From assembly GCF_012272825.1 (NCBI RefSeq), contig NZ_JAAWWS010000145.1, positions 62,001 to 126,000 on the forward strand: a stretch of 64,000 nt of DNA, given 5' to 3'. The notes under the pieces were generated by a model, which searched no databases, had not been told where the DNA came from, and was given only the letters and a program-made list of their open reading frames with translations. Positions 25,709-31,412 of this stretch are shown piece after piece (the first letter of the stretch is position 1; every line of letters begins with the position of its first letter). This DNA comes from Wenzhouxiangella sp. XN79A (GTDB lineage: Bacteria > Pseudomonadota > Gammaproteobacteria > Xanthomonadales > Wenzhouxiangellaceae). The position numbers were made by a program, and so were the translations under genes.

Positions 25709-26015
25709 CGTCGTGCGCCTCGCTCGGGTTCGGCGACAGTCGGGGCTCGACGTCGTAGTAGTCCACCGGCCGCTTCAGCACGAAGCCCAGCAGCTTGGCG
25801 AAGACGACCATGGCCACGCAGGTCAGGAAGCCGTAGATCGCGTTGAAACCGATCCACTCGTCGATTCCGAAGTAGCCGTGCACGTGGACGAAGACCTGGC
25901 CGATGACGGTCAGGGCCAGGATGGCACCGAACACCCACCACAGGATGCGGATCGTCTTCGGCCGTACCAGCCAGTGGTCGGCGTCGGCGGGTCGGCGCTC
26001 GCGCTGCTCGCTCAT
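25701..26015 (-). CDS. Small membrane protein within the Mrp operon
   Basis: A 104-aa protein with two or three hydrophobic segments (TIRILWWVFGAILALTVIGQ; NAIYGFLTCVAMVVFAKLLG) and a charged C-terminus (YYDVEPRLSPNPSEAHDDA). It overlaps both neighbours (ATGA with the upstream MrpD-like gene, 8 nt with the downstream one), so it is very likely a coupled subunit or assembly factor of the antiporter. It is not one of the canonical Mrp subunits A-G. Confidence 0.7.
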   Translation of the reverse strand: MSEQRERRPADADHWLVRPKTIRILWWVFGAILALTVIGQVFVHVHGYFGIDEWIGFNAIYGFLTCVAMVVFAKLLGFVLKRPVDYYDVEPRLSPNPSEAHDDA

Positions 26016-27478
26016 TTCGGCACCTCGAGAATGCGGGACTCGATGTCCACGACCGGGCCGTTGAAGACGAAGAACAGGATGGTCAGCGTCGCCGTCAGGG
26101 CCAGTGCGGCGACCATCGGCCACGGCGCCTCGCCATGGTCGCGCGCCGGCGCGGAGTCCTCGGCCCGGAAGAAGGCGCGGAACACGATCGGCAGGAAATA
26201 CGCCGCGTTCAGCGCCGTCGATGCGCCCATGACCGCCAGCACGAAGAAGCTCTCGACCTGGAAGGCCCCGGCGATGATGTACCACTTCGATACGAAGCCG
26301 GCCGTCGGCGGCACGCCGATCATCGACAGCGCACCGACGGTGAAGGCCGCCATGGTCCACGGCATCCGCCAGCCGATCCCGCGCAGCTGGTCGATCCGGG
26401 TCTTGCTCGATGCGATGTAGATCGCGCCGGCACAGAAGAACAGCGTGATCTTGCCGAAGGCGTGCGCGACGATGTGGACGGCCGCGCCGATTTCGGCAAA
26501 CGGCGCCAGTACCAGCGCGGCCAGCACGATGTAGCTCAGCTGGCTGATCGTCGAGTAGGCCAGCATCTTCTTGATCTCGACCTGCTTCAGCGCAACGATC
26601 GAGGCCGCGACGATGGTGAAGCCGGCCAGGTACATCAGGTACTTCTCCAGCGGCACGGCCGCCAGGAAATCCAGTCCGAAGATGTAGATCACGACCTTGG
26701 TGATCGTGAACACGCCGGCCTTGACCACGGCCACCGCGTGGAGCAGGGCCGAGACCGGCGTCGGTGCGACCATCGCGGCCGGCAGCCAGCGGTGCATCGG
26801 CATCACCGCCGCCTTGCCGGTGCCGAGCACGAACATCGTCAGCAGGACCGCCGCCGCGGTCGGTCCGATGTTGCCGAGCAGGATGCCGCCCTGGGTGAAG
26901 TCGGTGGTCCCGGCGACGACCCAGGTCCAGACGATCGCCGGCAGCAGGAAACCGATCGACGTGGTCAGCAGCACGCCCATGTAGGTGCGGCCGCCGGCCC
27001 GCGCGGCGTCGTTCTGCTTGTGGGTGACCAGCGGCCAGGTCGACAGCGTCAGTACTTCGTAGAAGATGAACAGCGTCAGCAGGTTGCCGGCAGTCGCCAC
27101 GCCCATCGCGCCGGAGATGGCGACGGCGAAGAAGGCGAAGAACGGCGTCTGGCGCGGCTCGTTGGCACCGCGCATGTAGCCGATCGCATAGACCGAGGTC
27201 ACGATCCACAACAGGCTGGCCAGCAGCGCGAAGACCAGGCCCAGCGGCTCGACGTCGAAGGCGATCTTCAGGCCCGGCAGCGGCTCGGCGACGGTCAGCG
27301 AGGCCCCGGCGCCGTTGACGACCGGGTCGATCAACTGGGTCGCGATGGCGAACAGGGTGACCGCGGTGGTCAGGGTGACGGCCTCGCGCAGGTTCGGCCA
27401 GCGGCCGACCAGCGCGATCAGCAGCGCGCCGATCAACGGCACCACGATCAGCAGGACGATGATCGACTCGGGGCTCAC
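26012..27478 (-). CDS. Antiporter-like subunit (MrpD family), 488 aa
   Basis: Fourteen-helix proton channel subunit. Conserved residues: glutamate in LFIFYEVLTLSTWPL and lysine in ALLHAVAVVKAGVFTITKV, plus HAFGKITLFFCAGAIYIASSKTRID. It overlaps the downstream 104-aa gene and the upstream mnhD by 4 nt each. Length and motifs equal a canonical MrpD, making two near-canonical MrpD proteins in tandem. Confidence 0.9.
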   Translation of the reverse strand: MSPESIIVLLIVVPLIGALLIALVGRWPNLREAVTLTTAVTLFAIATQLIDPVVNGAGASLTVAEPLPGLKIAFDVEPLGLVFALLASLLWIVTSVYAIGYMRGANEPRQTPFFAFFAVAISGAMGVATAGNLLTLFIFYEVLTLSTWPLVTHKQNDAARAGGRTYMGVLLTTSIGFLLPAIVWTWVVAGTTDFTQGGILLGNIGPTAAAVLLTMFVLGTGKAAVMPMHRWLPAAMVAPTPVSALLHAVAVVKAGVFTITKVVIYIFGLDFLAAVPLEKYLMYLAGFTIVAASIVALKQVEIKKMLAYSTISQLSYIVLAALVLAPFAEIGAAVHIVAHAFGKITLFFCAGAIYIASSKTRIDQLRGIGWRMPWTMAAFTVGALSMIGVPPTAGFVSKWYIIAGAFQVESFFVLAVMGASTALNAAYFLPIVFRAFFRAEDSAPARDHGEAPWPMVAALALTATLTILFFVFNGPVVDIESRILEVPK

Positions 27479-28947
27479 GGCGCGCCTCCGACCAGGATCT
27501 CGGCGCCGTGAGTGGCGACATCCAGGGTCAATCGGGTGTCGATGCCGAACCAGAAGTTGGCCGCGATCAGTACGTACATCGGGAGCAGCAGTCCGAGCGG
27601 GGCTTCACGGACCGGTTCGGCGCGCTCCGGCGCCGGTTTCAGGTAGGCGGCCTCGGCGACCCGGCCGATGTAGAGCACGGCCAGCAGCGAGCCGACCAGC
27701 ACGACCACCACGGCCAGCCAGTTGCCCTGCAGGATCGCGGCCTGGATCAGTGCCCACTTGCTGATGAAGCCGGCGGTCAGCGGCACGCCGATCATCGACA
27801 GGCCGGCCAGCACGAAGGCCAGCATCGTCCACGGCATGCTGCGGGCGAGACCGGCGATGTCGCTCATCCGGTCCGTGCCGATCCGGTAGATGATCGCGCC
27901 GGCGGCCATGAACAGCGCGCCCTTCATCAGTGCATGGTTGAAGATGTGGACCAGGCCGGCGGCCAGGCCTTCGACGGAAACCAGGCTGATCGCCAGCGCG
28001 ATGTAGCCGATCTGGGCCACGCTCGAGTAGGCCAGCATGCGCTTGAGATTCGGCTGGTCGATGGCCGAGATCGATGCGAACAGGATGCCGATGATGCCGA
28101 GCGTGAAGAACACGGTCTGGTAGGGCATGGTCAGCGCGAACTCGAGTCCGAACACCGTGAACACCATGCGCAGCAGGACGTAGACCGCGACCTTGGTTGC
28201 AGTGGCGGCCAGGAACACGGTCACCGCCGACGGCGCGTTGGTGTAGGCACCCGGCAGCCAGCGGTGCAGCGGGAACAGCGCCAGCTTCAGGCCCAGGCCG
28301 ATGACGATGAAGGCGAACGCAGCGCGGATCGCGTTGGTCTCGGCGACCTCGGGCACGCGCTCGGCCAGGTCGGCCATGTTCAGCGTGCCGGTCATGATGT
28401 AGAGCAGGCCCACGCCGATCAGATAGAAGGTCGCGCCCAGCGTGCCCATGATCAGGTAGCGGAACGACGACAGCAGCGCGGCGCGCTTTCGGCCGTGGGC
28501 GATCAGCGCGTAGGTCGACAGCGAGGAGATCTCGAGGAACACGAACACGTTGAACGCGTCGCCGGTCAGCACGATGCCCATCAGGCCGGCCAGGGCCAGC
28601 AGGAACAGCGCGTAGAACGGGCCCTGGCGCTCCGGCACTTCGCGGTTCACGCTCAGTCGGGCCCACGGCAGGATGATCACGCCCATCCACGCGATCAGCA
28701 GCGCCAGCAAGGCATTGACGCTGTCGACCCGGTATTCGATGCCGATCGGCGGCGGCCAGTTGCCGAACGAGTAGCGCAGCGGCTCGTCCATCGCCGCCGG
28801 CAGCACGAAGGCGGTGATCACGGCCGAGGCAGCCACCGCCAGCAAGGCCAGCGACCACGGCAGGACGCGCCCCGGCAGCAGCGCGCAGACCGGTGCGGCA
28901 ATCAGCGGCACGAGCACGCTGAACGGCAGCCATTCGAGCACGGTCAT
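27475..28947 (-). CDS. mnhD: Na+/H+ antiporter subunit MnhD/MrpD
   Basis: A 490-aa antiporter subunit. The glutamate lies in FVFLEISSLSTYALIAHG and the lysine in FLAATATKVAVYVLLRM; the FNHALMKGALFMAAGAIIYRIGTDRM motif is typical of MrpD. It directly follows mnhC with a 4-nt overlap, the canonical C-D order, so this copy is the best candidate for the orthologous MrpD. Confidence 0.92.
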   Translation of the reverse strand: MTVLEWLPFSVLVPLIAAPVCALLPGRVLPWSLALLAVAASAVITAFVLPAAMDEPLRYSFGNWPPPIGIEYRVDSVNALLALLIAWMGVIILPWARLSVNREVPERQGPFYALFLLALAGLMGIVLTGDAFNVFVFLEISSLSTYALIAHGRKRAALLSSFRYLIMGTLGATFYLIGVGLLYIMTGTLNMADLAERVPEVAETNAIRAAFAFIVIGLGLKLALFPLHRWLPGAYTNAPSAVTVFLAATATKVAVYVLLRMVFTVFGLEFALTMPYQTVFFTLGIIGILFASISAIDQPNLKRMLAYSSVAQIGYIALAISLVSVEGLAAGLVHIFNHALMKGALFMAAGAIIYRIGTDRMSDIAGLARSMPWTMLAFVLAGLSMIGVPLTAGFISKWALIQAAILQGNWLAVVVVLVGSLLAVLYIGRVAEAAYLKPAPERAEPVREAPLGLLLPMYVLIAANFWFGIDTRLTLDVATHGAEILVGGAP

Positions 28948-29318
28948 GCGGTCCCCTCGTCGTCCTCGTCGGCGTCCTCGACCTCGGTCAGCAGGTCGTC
29001 CTCGATGCTTCCGTAGGCTTCGTTGATCCGGACGGCCAGCGCCAGGCCCACCGCCGTGGTGGCGACGCCGACCACGATCGCGGTCAGGATCAGCACGTGC
29101 GGAAGCGGGTTGGAGTAGACCTCGACGCCGTCGCGCAGGATCGGCGTGGCGCCGCCGAGGATCTTGCCGGCCGAGATGAACAGGATGAAGGCCGAGGTCT
29201 GGAACAGGTTCAGCCCCATGATCTTCTTGGCCATGTTGCCGCGCGCGATCACGGCGTAGAAGCCGATCATCATCAGCACGACGACGACGTAGTAGTTGTA
29301 GTGGCCCAGCAGATCCAT
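28944..29318 (-). CDS. mnhC: Na+/H+ antiporter subunit MnhC/MrpC (NuoK-like)
   Basis: A 124-aa, three-helix NuoK homologue. The motif NMAKKIMGLNLFQTSAFILFI and the later PLPHVLILTAIVVGVATTAVGLAL are diagnostic for MrpC. An acidic C-terminal tail (EVEDADEDDEG) is present. It overlaps mnhB by 1 nt and mnhD by 4 nt. Confidence 0.92.
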   Translation of the reverse strand: MDLLGHYNYYVVVVLMMIGFYAVIARGNMAKKIMGLNLFQTSAFILFISAGKILGGATPILRDGVEVYSNPLPHVLILTAIVVGVATTAVGLALAVRINEAYGSIEDDLLTEVEDADEDDEGTA

Positions 29319-29770
29319 CAGTCGAGGCCCTCCCGGTGGTCGTCGCGGTCGAGCTCGGCGCGGCGCTTGACGAACATCGTGAAGATCAGCATGACCACCG
29401 TGGCCACGGTGATCCCGACCCCGAGCTCGACCAGGATGATGCCGGCCTGCTGCGCGCTCTGCGGGTCGTCGAGCAGCACCGAGAAGTCGAGGAAGCGGCC
29501 GCCGAGCGCGACGCCGAGCAGTCCGATGAACGCGTACAGCAGCGCGCCGCAGGCGCTGAGCACGAACATCGTGCGCTCGGGAATCACCGCCAGGCCGGCC
29601 TCGAGGCCGTAGATCAGTACGAACAGGATCCACGCCGAGGCAAAGATCACGCCGGCCTGGAAACCACCGCCCGGCGAGTACTCGCCGTGGAACTGCACAT
29701 ACAGCGCGAACAGCATGATCAGCGGGATCAGGAAGCGCGCGACGATGCGCAGGATGCCGTTGCTCCTCAC
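29318..29770 (-). CDS. mnhB: Na+/H+ antiporter subunit MnhB/MrpB
   Basis: A 150-aa, four-helix MrpB subunit with the family signature YVQFHGEYSPGGGFQAGVI near the N-terminus and GVGITVATVVMLIFTMF at the C-terminus. It overlaps its neighbours by 4 nt and 1 nt. Confidence 0.92.
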   Translation of the reverse strand: MRSNGILRIVARFLIPLIMLFALYVQFHGEYSPGGGFQAGVIFASAWILFVLIYGLEAGLAVIPERTMFVLSACGALLYAFIGLLGVALGGRFLDFSVLLDDPQSAQQAGIILVELGVGITVATVVMLIFTMFVKRRAELDRDDHREGLD

Positions 29771-30324
29771 TGGTCGTCCTCCCGGGAGCGGCGGCGTCGC
29801 CGCTTCGGTGGCACCGACAACAGCGCGAATACGCCCAGGCCCGCGGTGAAGATCACGATGACCTCACCGAAGGTATCGATCGAGCGGTAGCTGGCCAGCA
29901 CCGCGGCGACCATGTTCGGGATGCCCATGTCGTTGTACGTCTCGTTGACGTAGTACGGCGCGACGTGGGTCTGGACCGGGTTGTCGGCGGCGCCGAAGTC
30001 CGGCAGATCGGACACCGCCCAGAACAGGCAGGCGCCGGTGACCGTGACCACGGCCAGGGCCGGCAGGTTCAGGGCCTTGACCGGGTGTTCGTAGCGCTTG
30101 GCCAGGGCCAGTACCGCCAGCACCAGAATGGTCGAGATACCGGCCCCGACCGCGGCCTCGGTCAGCGCGACGTCGCCGGCGTCGAGCACGACGAACAGCG
30201 CGGCCGACAGCAGCGAATAGATCGCGAACAGCATGGCGGCCGAGAACAGGTCGCGGGACGCGACCACCGCCACGGCGACCACGACCAGGAACGACAGCAG
30301 GGCGATGTCGATCAGGACTTCGAT
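29767..30324 (-). CDS. MrpA C-terminal/MbhD-MbhE-like subunit, probable ATC start
   Basis: About 185 aa. The N-terminal half (DLFSAAMLFAIYSLLSAALF, TEAAVGAGISTILVLAVL) is the NuoJ-like MbhD domain (DUF4040) and the C-terminal half (YRSIDTFGEVIVIFTAGLGVFALL) the MbhE domain; both normally form the C-terminus of large MrpA. Here they are a separate gene, as in MBH hydrogenases. No ATG, GTG or TTG exists where family members begin. ATC at 30322-30324 follows an AGGAG ribosome-binding site (30332-30336) at 7 nt and restores the usual N-terminus, so it is the likely start. It overlaps mnhG by 13 nt. Confidence 0.8.
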   Translation of the reverse strand: MEVLIDIALLSFLVVVAVAVVASRDLFSAAMLFAIYSLLSAALFVVLDAGDVALTEAAVGAGISTILVLAVLALAKRYEHPVKALNLPALAVVTVTGACLFWAVSDLPDFGAADNPVQTHVAPYYVNETYNDMGIPNMVAAVLASYRSIDTFGEVIVIFTAGLGVFALLSVPPKRRRRRSREDDQ

Positions 30325-30653
30325 GACGGCTCTCCTGGCACGGGGTCGCCGGTAACCTCGGGCGGTGAACGGTCGACCATCGCGGCCCGCGCCAGGGCGT
30401 GACTCGCGGTGGGCGCGGTGAACAGCAGGAACAGCAGGATCAGCAGCAGCTTGATGCTGATCAGGGCCAGTCCGGCCTGGATCAGCAGGCCGACGATGAT
30501 CAGCAGCGCGCACAGGGTATCGGTGATGCCGGCCGCGTGCAGGCGGCTGTAGAAGTCCGGGAAGCGGATCAGGCCGATCCCGCCGAGCACGCCGAACGCC
30601 CCGCCGGTCAGCAGGCAGGCGGCCGACAGCCAGAACAGCACGGTCTCAACCAT
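30312..30653 (-). CDS. mnhG: Na+/H+ antiporter subunit MnhG/MrpG
   Basis: A 113-aa, three-helix MrpG subunit with the diagnostic GGIGLIRFPDFYSRLHAAGITDTL and the C-terminal LFTAPTASHALARAA. Start at the ATG giving MVETVLFW. It overlaps mnhF by 8 nt and the MrpA-C-like gene by 13 nt. Confidence 0.92.
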   Translation of the reverse strand: MVETVLFWLSAACLLTGGAFGVLGGIGLIRFPDFYSRLHAAGITDTLCALLIIVGLLIQAGLALISIKLLLILLFLLFTAPTASHALARAAMVDRSPPEVTGDPVPGEPSSKS

Positions 30654-30939
30654 CGGTGATGTCTCCTTCGCCGGCGGCACCGAGGTCGCGCATCCGGACC
30701 AGCTTGAGCACCGCGACCACGGCAATGAAGTTGATCAGGGCGTAGACCAGGGCGACGTCGATCAGGTCGTCATTGCCGCTGATCGCCGTGATCAGCGCGA
30801 CGATCAGCACGGTCTTGGTGCCGAACACGTTGACCGCGACGATCCGGTCGTAGACGGTCGGGCCCTTGAGGGCGCGGACCAGCGCCAGCGCCATCGTGGC
30901 GAAGATCGCCAGCGCGGTCACCACCAGCACGGTGTTCAA
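30646..30939 (-). CDS. mnhF: Na+/H+ antiporter subunit MnhF/MrpF (TTG start)
   Basis: A 97-aa, three-helix MrpF subunit with the conserved ALKGPTVYDRIVAVNVFGTKTV and DVALVYALINFIAVVAVLK. No ATG lies near the expected start. TTG at 30937-30939, preceded by GGAG at 8 nt and overlapping the mnhE stop (TTGA), gives the normal N-terminus. Confidence 0.9.
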   Translation of the reverse strand: MNTVLVVTALAIFATMALALVRALKGPTVYDRIVAVNVFGTKTVLIVALITAISGNDDLIDVALVYALINFIAVVAVLKLVRMRDLGAAGEGDITDG

Positions 30940-31412
30940 GGCCGGTTCTCCAGCCACGCGATGCGCCGCTCCATTTCGCCGGATTCCAGGTCGCGGGCGG
31001 TGGACTCGAGCAGCGCATGGGCCTCGATGAAATCGGGCTCCAGCAGCAGTGTGACGGTGCCGGGCGTCAGGGTGATGGAGTTGGCGTAGGTCACCTTGGC
31101 CACCGGGGTGGCCAGTCGAACCGGCACCCGGACCACCTGCGGCCTGAGGTGACGGTCCGGCCACAGCGCGGCCCGGGCGACGGCGACATTGGCCTTGACG
31201 ATCTCCCAGACCAGCCAGCCCCAGTAGATCGGCAGGCGCCAGGAATACAGCACGGGGTTGTGTTCGACGCCGACCACGTCCATCCTGCGCGACATCCAGA
31301 CGACGAACAGCACCGAGGTCCCGCCGAGCAGGAACAGCAGCGGCTTGTACACGCCGGAAATGCCCAGCCAGAGCAGGGCCAGCAACAGGGCCAGGGAGAC
31401 GAGGTATCGCAT
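30936..31412 (-). CDS. mnhE: Na+/H+ antiporter subunit MnhE/MrpE
   Basis: A 158-aa MrpE: two N-terminal helices, then a cytoplasmic domain with the family motifs YWGWLVWEIVKANVAVAR and TYANSITLTPGTVTLLLE. It is the first gene of the ten-gene antiporter operon, whose order (E, F, G, A-C-term, B, C, D, D, small, D) resembles the MrpEFG-MbhDE-BCD module of MBH-type complexes. The operon promoter should be in the 126-nt gap shared with the divergent BLUF gene. Confidence 0.9.
   Translation of the reverse strand: MRYLVSLALLLALLWLGISGVYKPLLFLLGGTSVLFVVWMSRRMDVVGVEHNPVLYSWRLPIYWGWLVWEIVKANVAVARAALWPDRHLRPQVVRVPVRLATPVAKVTYANSITLTPGTVTLLLEPDFIEAHALLESTARDLESGEMERRIAWLENRP

Follow-up and report, generated by a model that had tools for sequence, protein, structure and literature searches.

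A conserved AUC codon as the probable translation start of an Mrp antiporter subunit gene in Wenzhouxiangella and its relatives

The locus

The window analysed here is a stretch of 64,000 nucleotides from Wenzhouxiangella sp. XN79A. Its minus strand carries an Mrp antiporter operon in the order mnhE, mnhF, mnhG, a gene that appears to start with ATC, mnhB, mnhC, mnhD and a second MnhD/MrpA-type gene (Table 1). Of these, mnhF was recognised from its translation; its apparent start is TTG, at 30937-30939 on the minus strand, overlapping the end of mnhE. The original prediction had labelled the ATC-started gene a split MrpA subunit. This label is right: read from the ATC, the product holds both MbhD (Pfam, 1.5e-15, residues 12-74) and MbhE (7.1e-10, residues 114-170) in a single protein whose gene adjoins mnhG and mnhB, the arrangement of a detached C-terminal part of MrpA. 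The NCBIfam family NF009159 matches above its own cut-off, with residues 3-170 facing positions 4-173 of the profile, and residues 3-79 align with residues 5-81 of a solved MbhD-type chain (PDB 6u8y_D).

Table 1. Features of the operon and of the start region (window coordinates).
Feature	Position	Strand	Remarks
Second MnhD/MrpA-type antiporter subunit	26012..27478	-	Pfam Proton_antipo_M 2.2e-54
mnhD	27475..28947	-	Pfam Proton_antipo_M 8.6e-65
mnhC	28944..29318	-	Pfam Oxidored_q2 2.4e-22
mnhB	29318..29770	-	GTG start overlapping stop of ATC-started gene; Pfam MnhB 4.6e-27
Mrp antiporter subunit, MbhD + MbhE (detached C-terminal part of MrpA)	29767..30324	-	185 codons from ATC
GTG at +42, rejected start	30280..30282	-	First canonical codon downstream
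13-nt overlap of mnhG and ATC-started gene	30312..30324	-	mnhG stop TGA 30314-30312 at +10 of ATC frame
CTG at +9, rejected start	30315..30317	-	Overlaps mnhG stop as CTGA; 16 nt from Shine-Dalgarno
Proposed AUC initiation codon	30322..30324	-	ATC; same codon in 33/35 family genomes
Shine-Dalgarno AGGAG	30332..30336	-	7 nt 5' of ATC
mnhG	30312..30653	-	ATG start at 30653; Pfam PhaG_MnhG_YufB 4.5e-26
mnhE	30936..31412	-	Pfam MNHE 5.6e-27

Offsets are given below in nucleotides relative to the ATC, which is taken as codon 0. The frame of 29767-30324 contains no ATG, GTG or TTG between a GTG at 30513 (-189) and the GTG at +42. The predicted lack of any such codon at the conserved N-terminus is borne out, and so is the position of the ATC 7 nt after a strong AGGAG. 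The upstream GTG at 30513 was considered as a start and rejected. The window's own 90 nt around the start fold at -26.1 kcal/mol, with the Shine-Dalgarno (SD) region paired with downstream bases, a pairing that the consensus of 41 family-level rows does not keep (RNAalifold). In the same rows, conserved RNA structure around the start amounts to just a 4-bp hairpin inside the gene, at -1.9 kcal/mol; a column-shuffle control gave exactly zero in 50 shuffles and is uninformative.

The start codon among relatives

Looking up the start codon in relatives had been proposed as a check, and its outcome supports initiation at the ATC as the restored family start. ATC occupies the equivalent place in all six genomes of the genus, our own included, and in 33 of 35 genomes of the family, W. 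sediminis and W. limi (L057, L071) among its carriers; in the other two (L033, L036) an ATG stands one codon upstream and is followed by ATC. The 35 derive from a search with a match in 36 of 43 genomes, after one genome with distant homologs only (G028) was left out. L049, a MAG from Wenzhouxiangellaceae, has the same start context as L007, which comes from a genome of the same genus. The presence of ATC at the same place throughout genus and family rules out a sequencing error, and neither of the other two alternatives named beforehand, the CTG at 30315 and the GTG near 30280, holds in relatives.

Searches at wider rank, which were samples with differing E-value limits, returned a match in 65 of 299 genomes of the order, 67 of 369 of the class and 19 of 398 of the phylum at their thresholds. 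Second fragments of two genomes (G023, G082) were left out, as were the eight weakest rows of one search (60 of its 68 rows besides our own were taken), and L081-L083 repeat ATC rows already in the family count. In all, 183 loci were reduced to 155 non-redundant ones by dropping two that lie too near a contig end (L093, L113) and 26 duplicates; the 155 are loci and not species, as three genomes (G638, G560, G732) are represented twice, and one locus, L079, is a paralog with 47% identity. Plasmid records yielded 13 distant relatives, 12 haloarchaeal and one clostridial, uninformative on the start.

We define an ATC type as a locus with ATC at codon 0 and no canonical codon at -15 to +6. There are 75 of these among the 155. 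A further 70 have a canonical codon within -15 to +6 (38 at codon 0, 25 at -3 and 7 elsewhere in this interval), and seven have neither such a codon nor AUH at codon 0 (L101, L159, L180, L186, L189, L190, L191), with an ATG further upstream in L180, L186 and L189-L191. These 77 loci, 70 canonical and 7 unclear, lie outside the AUH class. Two loci have ATA at codon 0 (L136, L154), which shares bases with the mnhG stop (ATAG or ATAA); one has ATT (L074). Since ATC types were selected for their ATC, a constant codon 0 within this class follows from the selection, and the fair figure is 75 ATC, 2 ATA and 1 ATT in 78 AUH rows. A near-cognate AUH codon at this place is conserved across species, within the family as in the wider set. 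ATC is also found in two genomes of another class of the same phylum (L178, L192), and the conserved AUC start extends over about two dozen genera, genus codes being counted by hand. This recurrence of an odd start across species suggests that there is a reason for retaining weak or special initiation.

Initiation at the AUC and its rivals

From these comparisons of sequence, we put the probability that the AUC is the initiation codon of the MbhD/MbhE subunit gene at about 0.85. In 57 of the 75 ATC types there is not a single canonical codon from the upstream in-frame stop to codon 0, and that stop lies within 15 nt of the ATC in 12 cases and within 30 nt in 27. Conservation of residues in the ATC frame begins at the very next codon, which encodes an acidic residue (E or D) in 69 of the 75 types, followed by L (68), I (72) and D (61). 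The frame upstream is poorly conserved and often closed, the exceptions being Gly/Arg at residues -4 and -3, whose codons the SD spans, and V/I/A at residue -1. An SD match of at least 4 bases is found in 72 ATC types, three having none, and its spacing to the ATC is 7-8 nt, as for a start, in 61 of the 72. Moreover, ATG sits precisely at the position of ATC in five relatives (L059, L073, L086, L087, L090), and both 6u8y_D and the NF009159 profile have their beginnings just a few residues from this codon.

The same start test, applied to the neighbouring genes of ATC-type loci with testable flanks, served as a control. It found a canonical codon for mnhC in 39/39, mnhD in 34/34, mnhG in 56/57, mnhE in 38/40 and mnhB in 64/71 loci; over all testable loci the figures are 61/61, 46/52, 97/104, 55/57 and 124/150, respectively. 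The weak one is mnhB, for which 7 of the 71 ATC-type loci lack a canonical codon nearby: either the test errs at such a rate, or mnhB also has odd starts. Poor N-terminal alignment may account for part of the shortfall and odd starts for another part. L125 and L135 lack a canonical codon around the N-terminus of mnhB (contexts AATCTCAATGAC-CTCAGT and AATCTGAATGAC-CTCAGT); some species may initiate mnhB, too, at a non-canonical codon.

A start at the CTG at +9 is the first rival. This codon overlaps the mnhG stop in what looks like a common 4-nt overlap, and CTG stands there in 48 of the 75 ATC types. Yet in 18 others the codon is TTA, CTA, ATA, CTC or GTT, with no usual start among them; the SD of the window would be 16 nt away, and the codon at +3 encodes E or D in nearly all ATC types. 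We regard it as very improbable as a general solution; nine ATC types have ATG, GTG or TTG at +9, and for those rows a start there is possible. Slightly less credible still is initiation one codon upstream, at -3, where the window has GTC. A GTC start is known for sigR of Streptomyces (PMC5472188), and -3 is GTC or ATC in 50 of 71 ATC types. Nevertheless, the codon takes thirteen different forms in those 71 rows, and the SD of the window would be just 4 nt away. Loci with a canonical codon 0 also argue against this rival: their SD spacing, which peaks at 8 nt (16 of the 35 having an SD), resembles that of ATC types, and loci with a start one codon upstream have their SD on the whole further upstream.

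Two more rivals are least probable of all. Going downstream in the open frame, the GTG at +42 is the first canonical codon met, and automatic annotation could place the start there. Such a start would, however, cut off 14 conserved codons at the N-terminus, leading into the MbhD domain, and across the 75 ATC types the position of the first downstream canonical codon varies between +9 and +57. Alternatively, there would be no initiation whatsoever, ribosomes translating mnhG shifting by -1 within the overlap to make an MnhG-MbhDE fusion, and most ATC-type loci do show a 13-nt overlap of the two frames. A programmed fusion of this kind implies frame overlap at the shift site in all relatives. 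In L182, the end of mnhG lies 53 nt upstream of the ATC, and a stop at -33 interrupts the ATC frame; for L183 the distance is 45 nt and the stop is at -6. A frameshift in an overlap is therefore impossible in both, and this candidate was rejected. Inspection of the overlap by eye found no slippery heptamer, and the ATG in the exact place of ATC in L059 and L073 also goes against it.

infC as a yardstick

The gene for initiation factor IF3, infC, is autoregulated via its near-cognate start, which is AUU in E. coli. In the present genome (L193, C36:95350-95550, minus strand) infC reads ...AAAGGAGACATTCAC ATC GCA ACC GAC AAG, and its apparent start is ATC. Read by eye from printed contexts, the apparent infC start is ATC in 29 and ATA in 2 of 31 loci of the order, which come from 31 of the 60 genomes with an infC match. 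Of 30 genomes picked by hand, two had no match, and the other 28 loci show 19 ATC, 5 ATA and 4 ATT. Taken together, the 59 loci give 48 ATC, 7 ATA and 4 ATT. Two of these genes (L194, L195) have ATG or GTG three codons after the apparent start. With AUC at the apparent infC start of this genome and of most loci read in its order, AUC appears to be usable as a start here. The two genes did not match in start codon within a genome: infC and the mrp gene have, respectively, ATA and ATC in G486, ATT and ATC in G988, and ATC and ATA in G423; in G980 they have AUU and AUC. Codon identity therefore gives no support to a common regulation.

The mnhG overlap and the history of the codon

With mnhG assigned by a script to the long open frame that terminates close to the start, its stop falls at +10 in 70 of the 75 ATC types, as compared with 2 of the 38 loci with a canonical codon 0 and none of the 25 with a canonical codon at -3. 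In canonical loci the mnhG stop is mostly at +1 or -2: this holds for 23 of the 38, and among the 25 that start at -3 it is at -2 in 18. Three ATC types apparently have no mnhG overlap, which indicates that coupling to mnhG is not needed everywhere.

Placing the ATC label on a quickly built tree of 154 rows takes 18 changes, of which starred branches force 8 or more; for AUH versus canonical the number is 17. Many forks of the tree are weak and it has long branches, so these counts are rough. The ATC-type genes have three other Ile codons that are well conserved; with ATC:ATT:ATA ratios of 59:12:1, 41:25:3 and 43:16:5, they need 7, 22 and 17 changes. Codon 0 is ATC in nearly every AUH row, whereas these other codons vary. 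The base that precedes it is far more constrained than its own neighbours upstream. Base -1 (30325 in the window) is C in 74 of the 75 ATC types, against 18 of the 38 loci with a canonical codon 0, and it needs a single change on the tree, against 18 for base -2 and 12 for base -3. In the infC contexts, position -1 shows mixed bases. Base -2 is T in 54 of the ATC types, where another base at -1 could create TGA or TAA in the mnhG frame. However, C is also found at -1 in 20 of the 21 rows without T at -2, and avoidance of these stops is thus an insufficient explanation; L182 and L183, apparently without mnhG overlap, have the C as well. A constraint from the tail of mnhG and a context rule for AUC starts are both candidates. 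We found no description in the literature of a context rule with C before AUC starts.

A single G-to-C change in NTGATC would erase a start and a stop together, leaving NTC-ATC, and GTC-ATC, which fits this change, is present in 40 of 71 ATC types. The AUC could then be the start without any regulatory meaning: one base change in an ancestral NTGATC removed the NTG start and the mnhG stop, and the next codon, AUC, took over under a strong SD and coupling to mnhG, with weak counter-selection. Many canonical relatives do have NTGA at the site with the mnhG stop at -2, as in most of those starting at -3, and the prevalence of T at -2 and C at -1 in ATC types agrees with this history. L033 and L036, with ATG ATC, are nested among ATC types on the tree, so that the switch can run back too. 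A start devoid of regulatory meaning sits badly with the fact that ATC is kept in nearly the whole family though a single C to G change would make ATG; the near-fixity of base -1 on the tree is a second objection. On balance we give this account somewhat less than an even chance, and its probability overlaps with that of our main reading, the AUC start being common to both.

Possible mechanism and meaning

If the AUC is the start, the fMet initiator tRNA would begin translation at 30324-30322, the strong SD at good spacing probably compensating for the mispaired third codon base and holding the 30S over the AUC. Ribosomes that finish mnhG at the UGA in the overlap, 10 nt further on, would probably feed the AUC by termination-reinitiation. 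IF3 is expected to reject such starts, owing to the C-C mismatch, and this probably keeps the yield low or responsive. IF3 is reported to prefer stronger pairs at the third codon base (PMC10158994) and to repress the GTC start of sigR (PMC5472188). A lacZ fusion whose start was mutated to AUC reportedly gave much lower expression in B. subtilis (PMC10303841), which fits AUC being weak.

The original prediction held that IF3 proofreading might limit the rate at which this subunit is made and that its translation might be coupled to mnhG. Both proposals are plausible, given the apparent AUC start of infC in this genome and the conserved overlap with mnhG. For the two to operate together we see about even odds, coupling being suggested by the conserved overlap and sensitivity to IF3 by the infC and sigR precedents. 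It is a matter of speculation that the AUC start tunes one subunit relative to the others in the assembly of the Mrp complex. A more ambitious view seems doubtful to us: a dedicated AUC module (SD, about 6 variable bases, C-AUC-G) would have been kept or regained many times, antiporter assembly would be set by initiation fidelity, through the level of IF3 and coupling to mnhG, and the near-invariant C would be part of the recognition.

Whatever its control, a conserved AUC start in a transport subunit offers a natural series of loci that differ jointly in start codon, SD spacing and upstream overlap. This makes it possible to test why evolution keeps a weak start that is one base change away from AUG. 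There is also a practical side: annotation restricted to ATG, GTG and TTG would be expected to truncate or drop the subunit in many genomes.

Comparison with known systems

To our knowledge, few bacterial genes besides infC use AUH starts. E. coli pcnB is one, with AUU: it is likewise an ordinary gene with a near-cognate AUH codon, and it differs in having AUU and in lying outside a multi-subunit transporter operon. In the open-licence literature we found no report of an AUC start in any mrp or mnh gene, and what concerns ATC or AUC start codons there is mostly mitochondrial genome notes. A disrupted Neisseria gene copy is reported to have ATG changed to ATC (PMC10210955).

Three further cases are comparable. 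The pncA gene of Borrelia burgdorferi encodes an ordinary protein from a near-cognate AUH codon, and databases annotate it shorter; its codon is AUU, and the proposal is based on protein function and structure (PMC13398362). For ribosomal protein L12ae of Staphylothermus marinus, a gene without a valid start codon, ATC was proposed as the start from alignment with relatives, as here; the case described is a single archaeal gene in a single genome (PMC2678158). With sigR of Streptomyces the present gene has in common a non-canonical start, a strong SD and a co-transcribed pair. The sigR start is conserved across its genus, had been misannotated, was proven experimentally and is repressed by IF3 (PMC5472188). 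It differs in being GTC and not AUC, and the mrp start is proposed from sequence comparison; the authors of the sigR study see no evidence for the GTC start outside Streptomyces, while the mrp AUC spans many families.

Another close system is infC itself, with its AUU, AUC or AUA starts, a conserved non-canonical AUH start after an SD. There, however, the gene encodes the discriminating factor itself; here it encodes a membrane antiporter subunit inside an operon. The mrp gene also differs from infC in using AUC nearly exclusively and, mostly, in a 13-nt overlap with the gene that precedes it.
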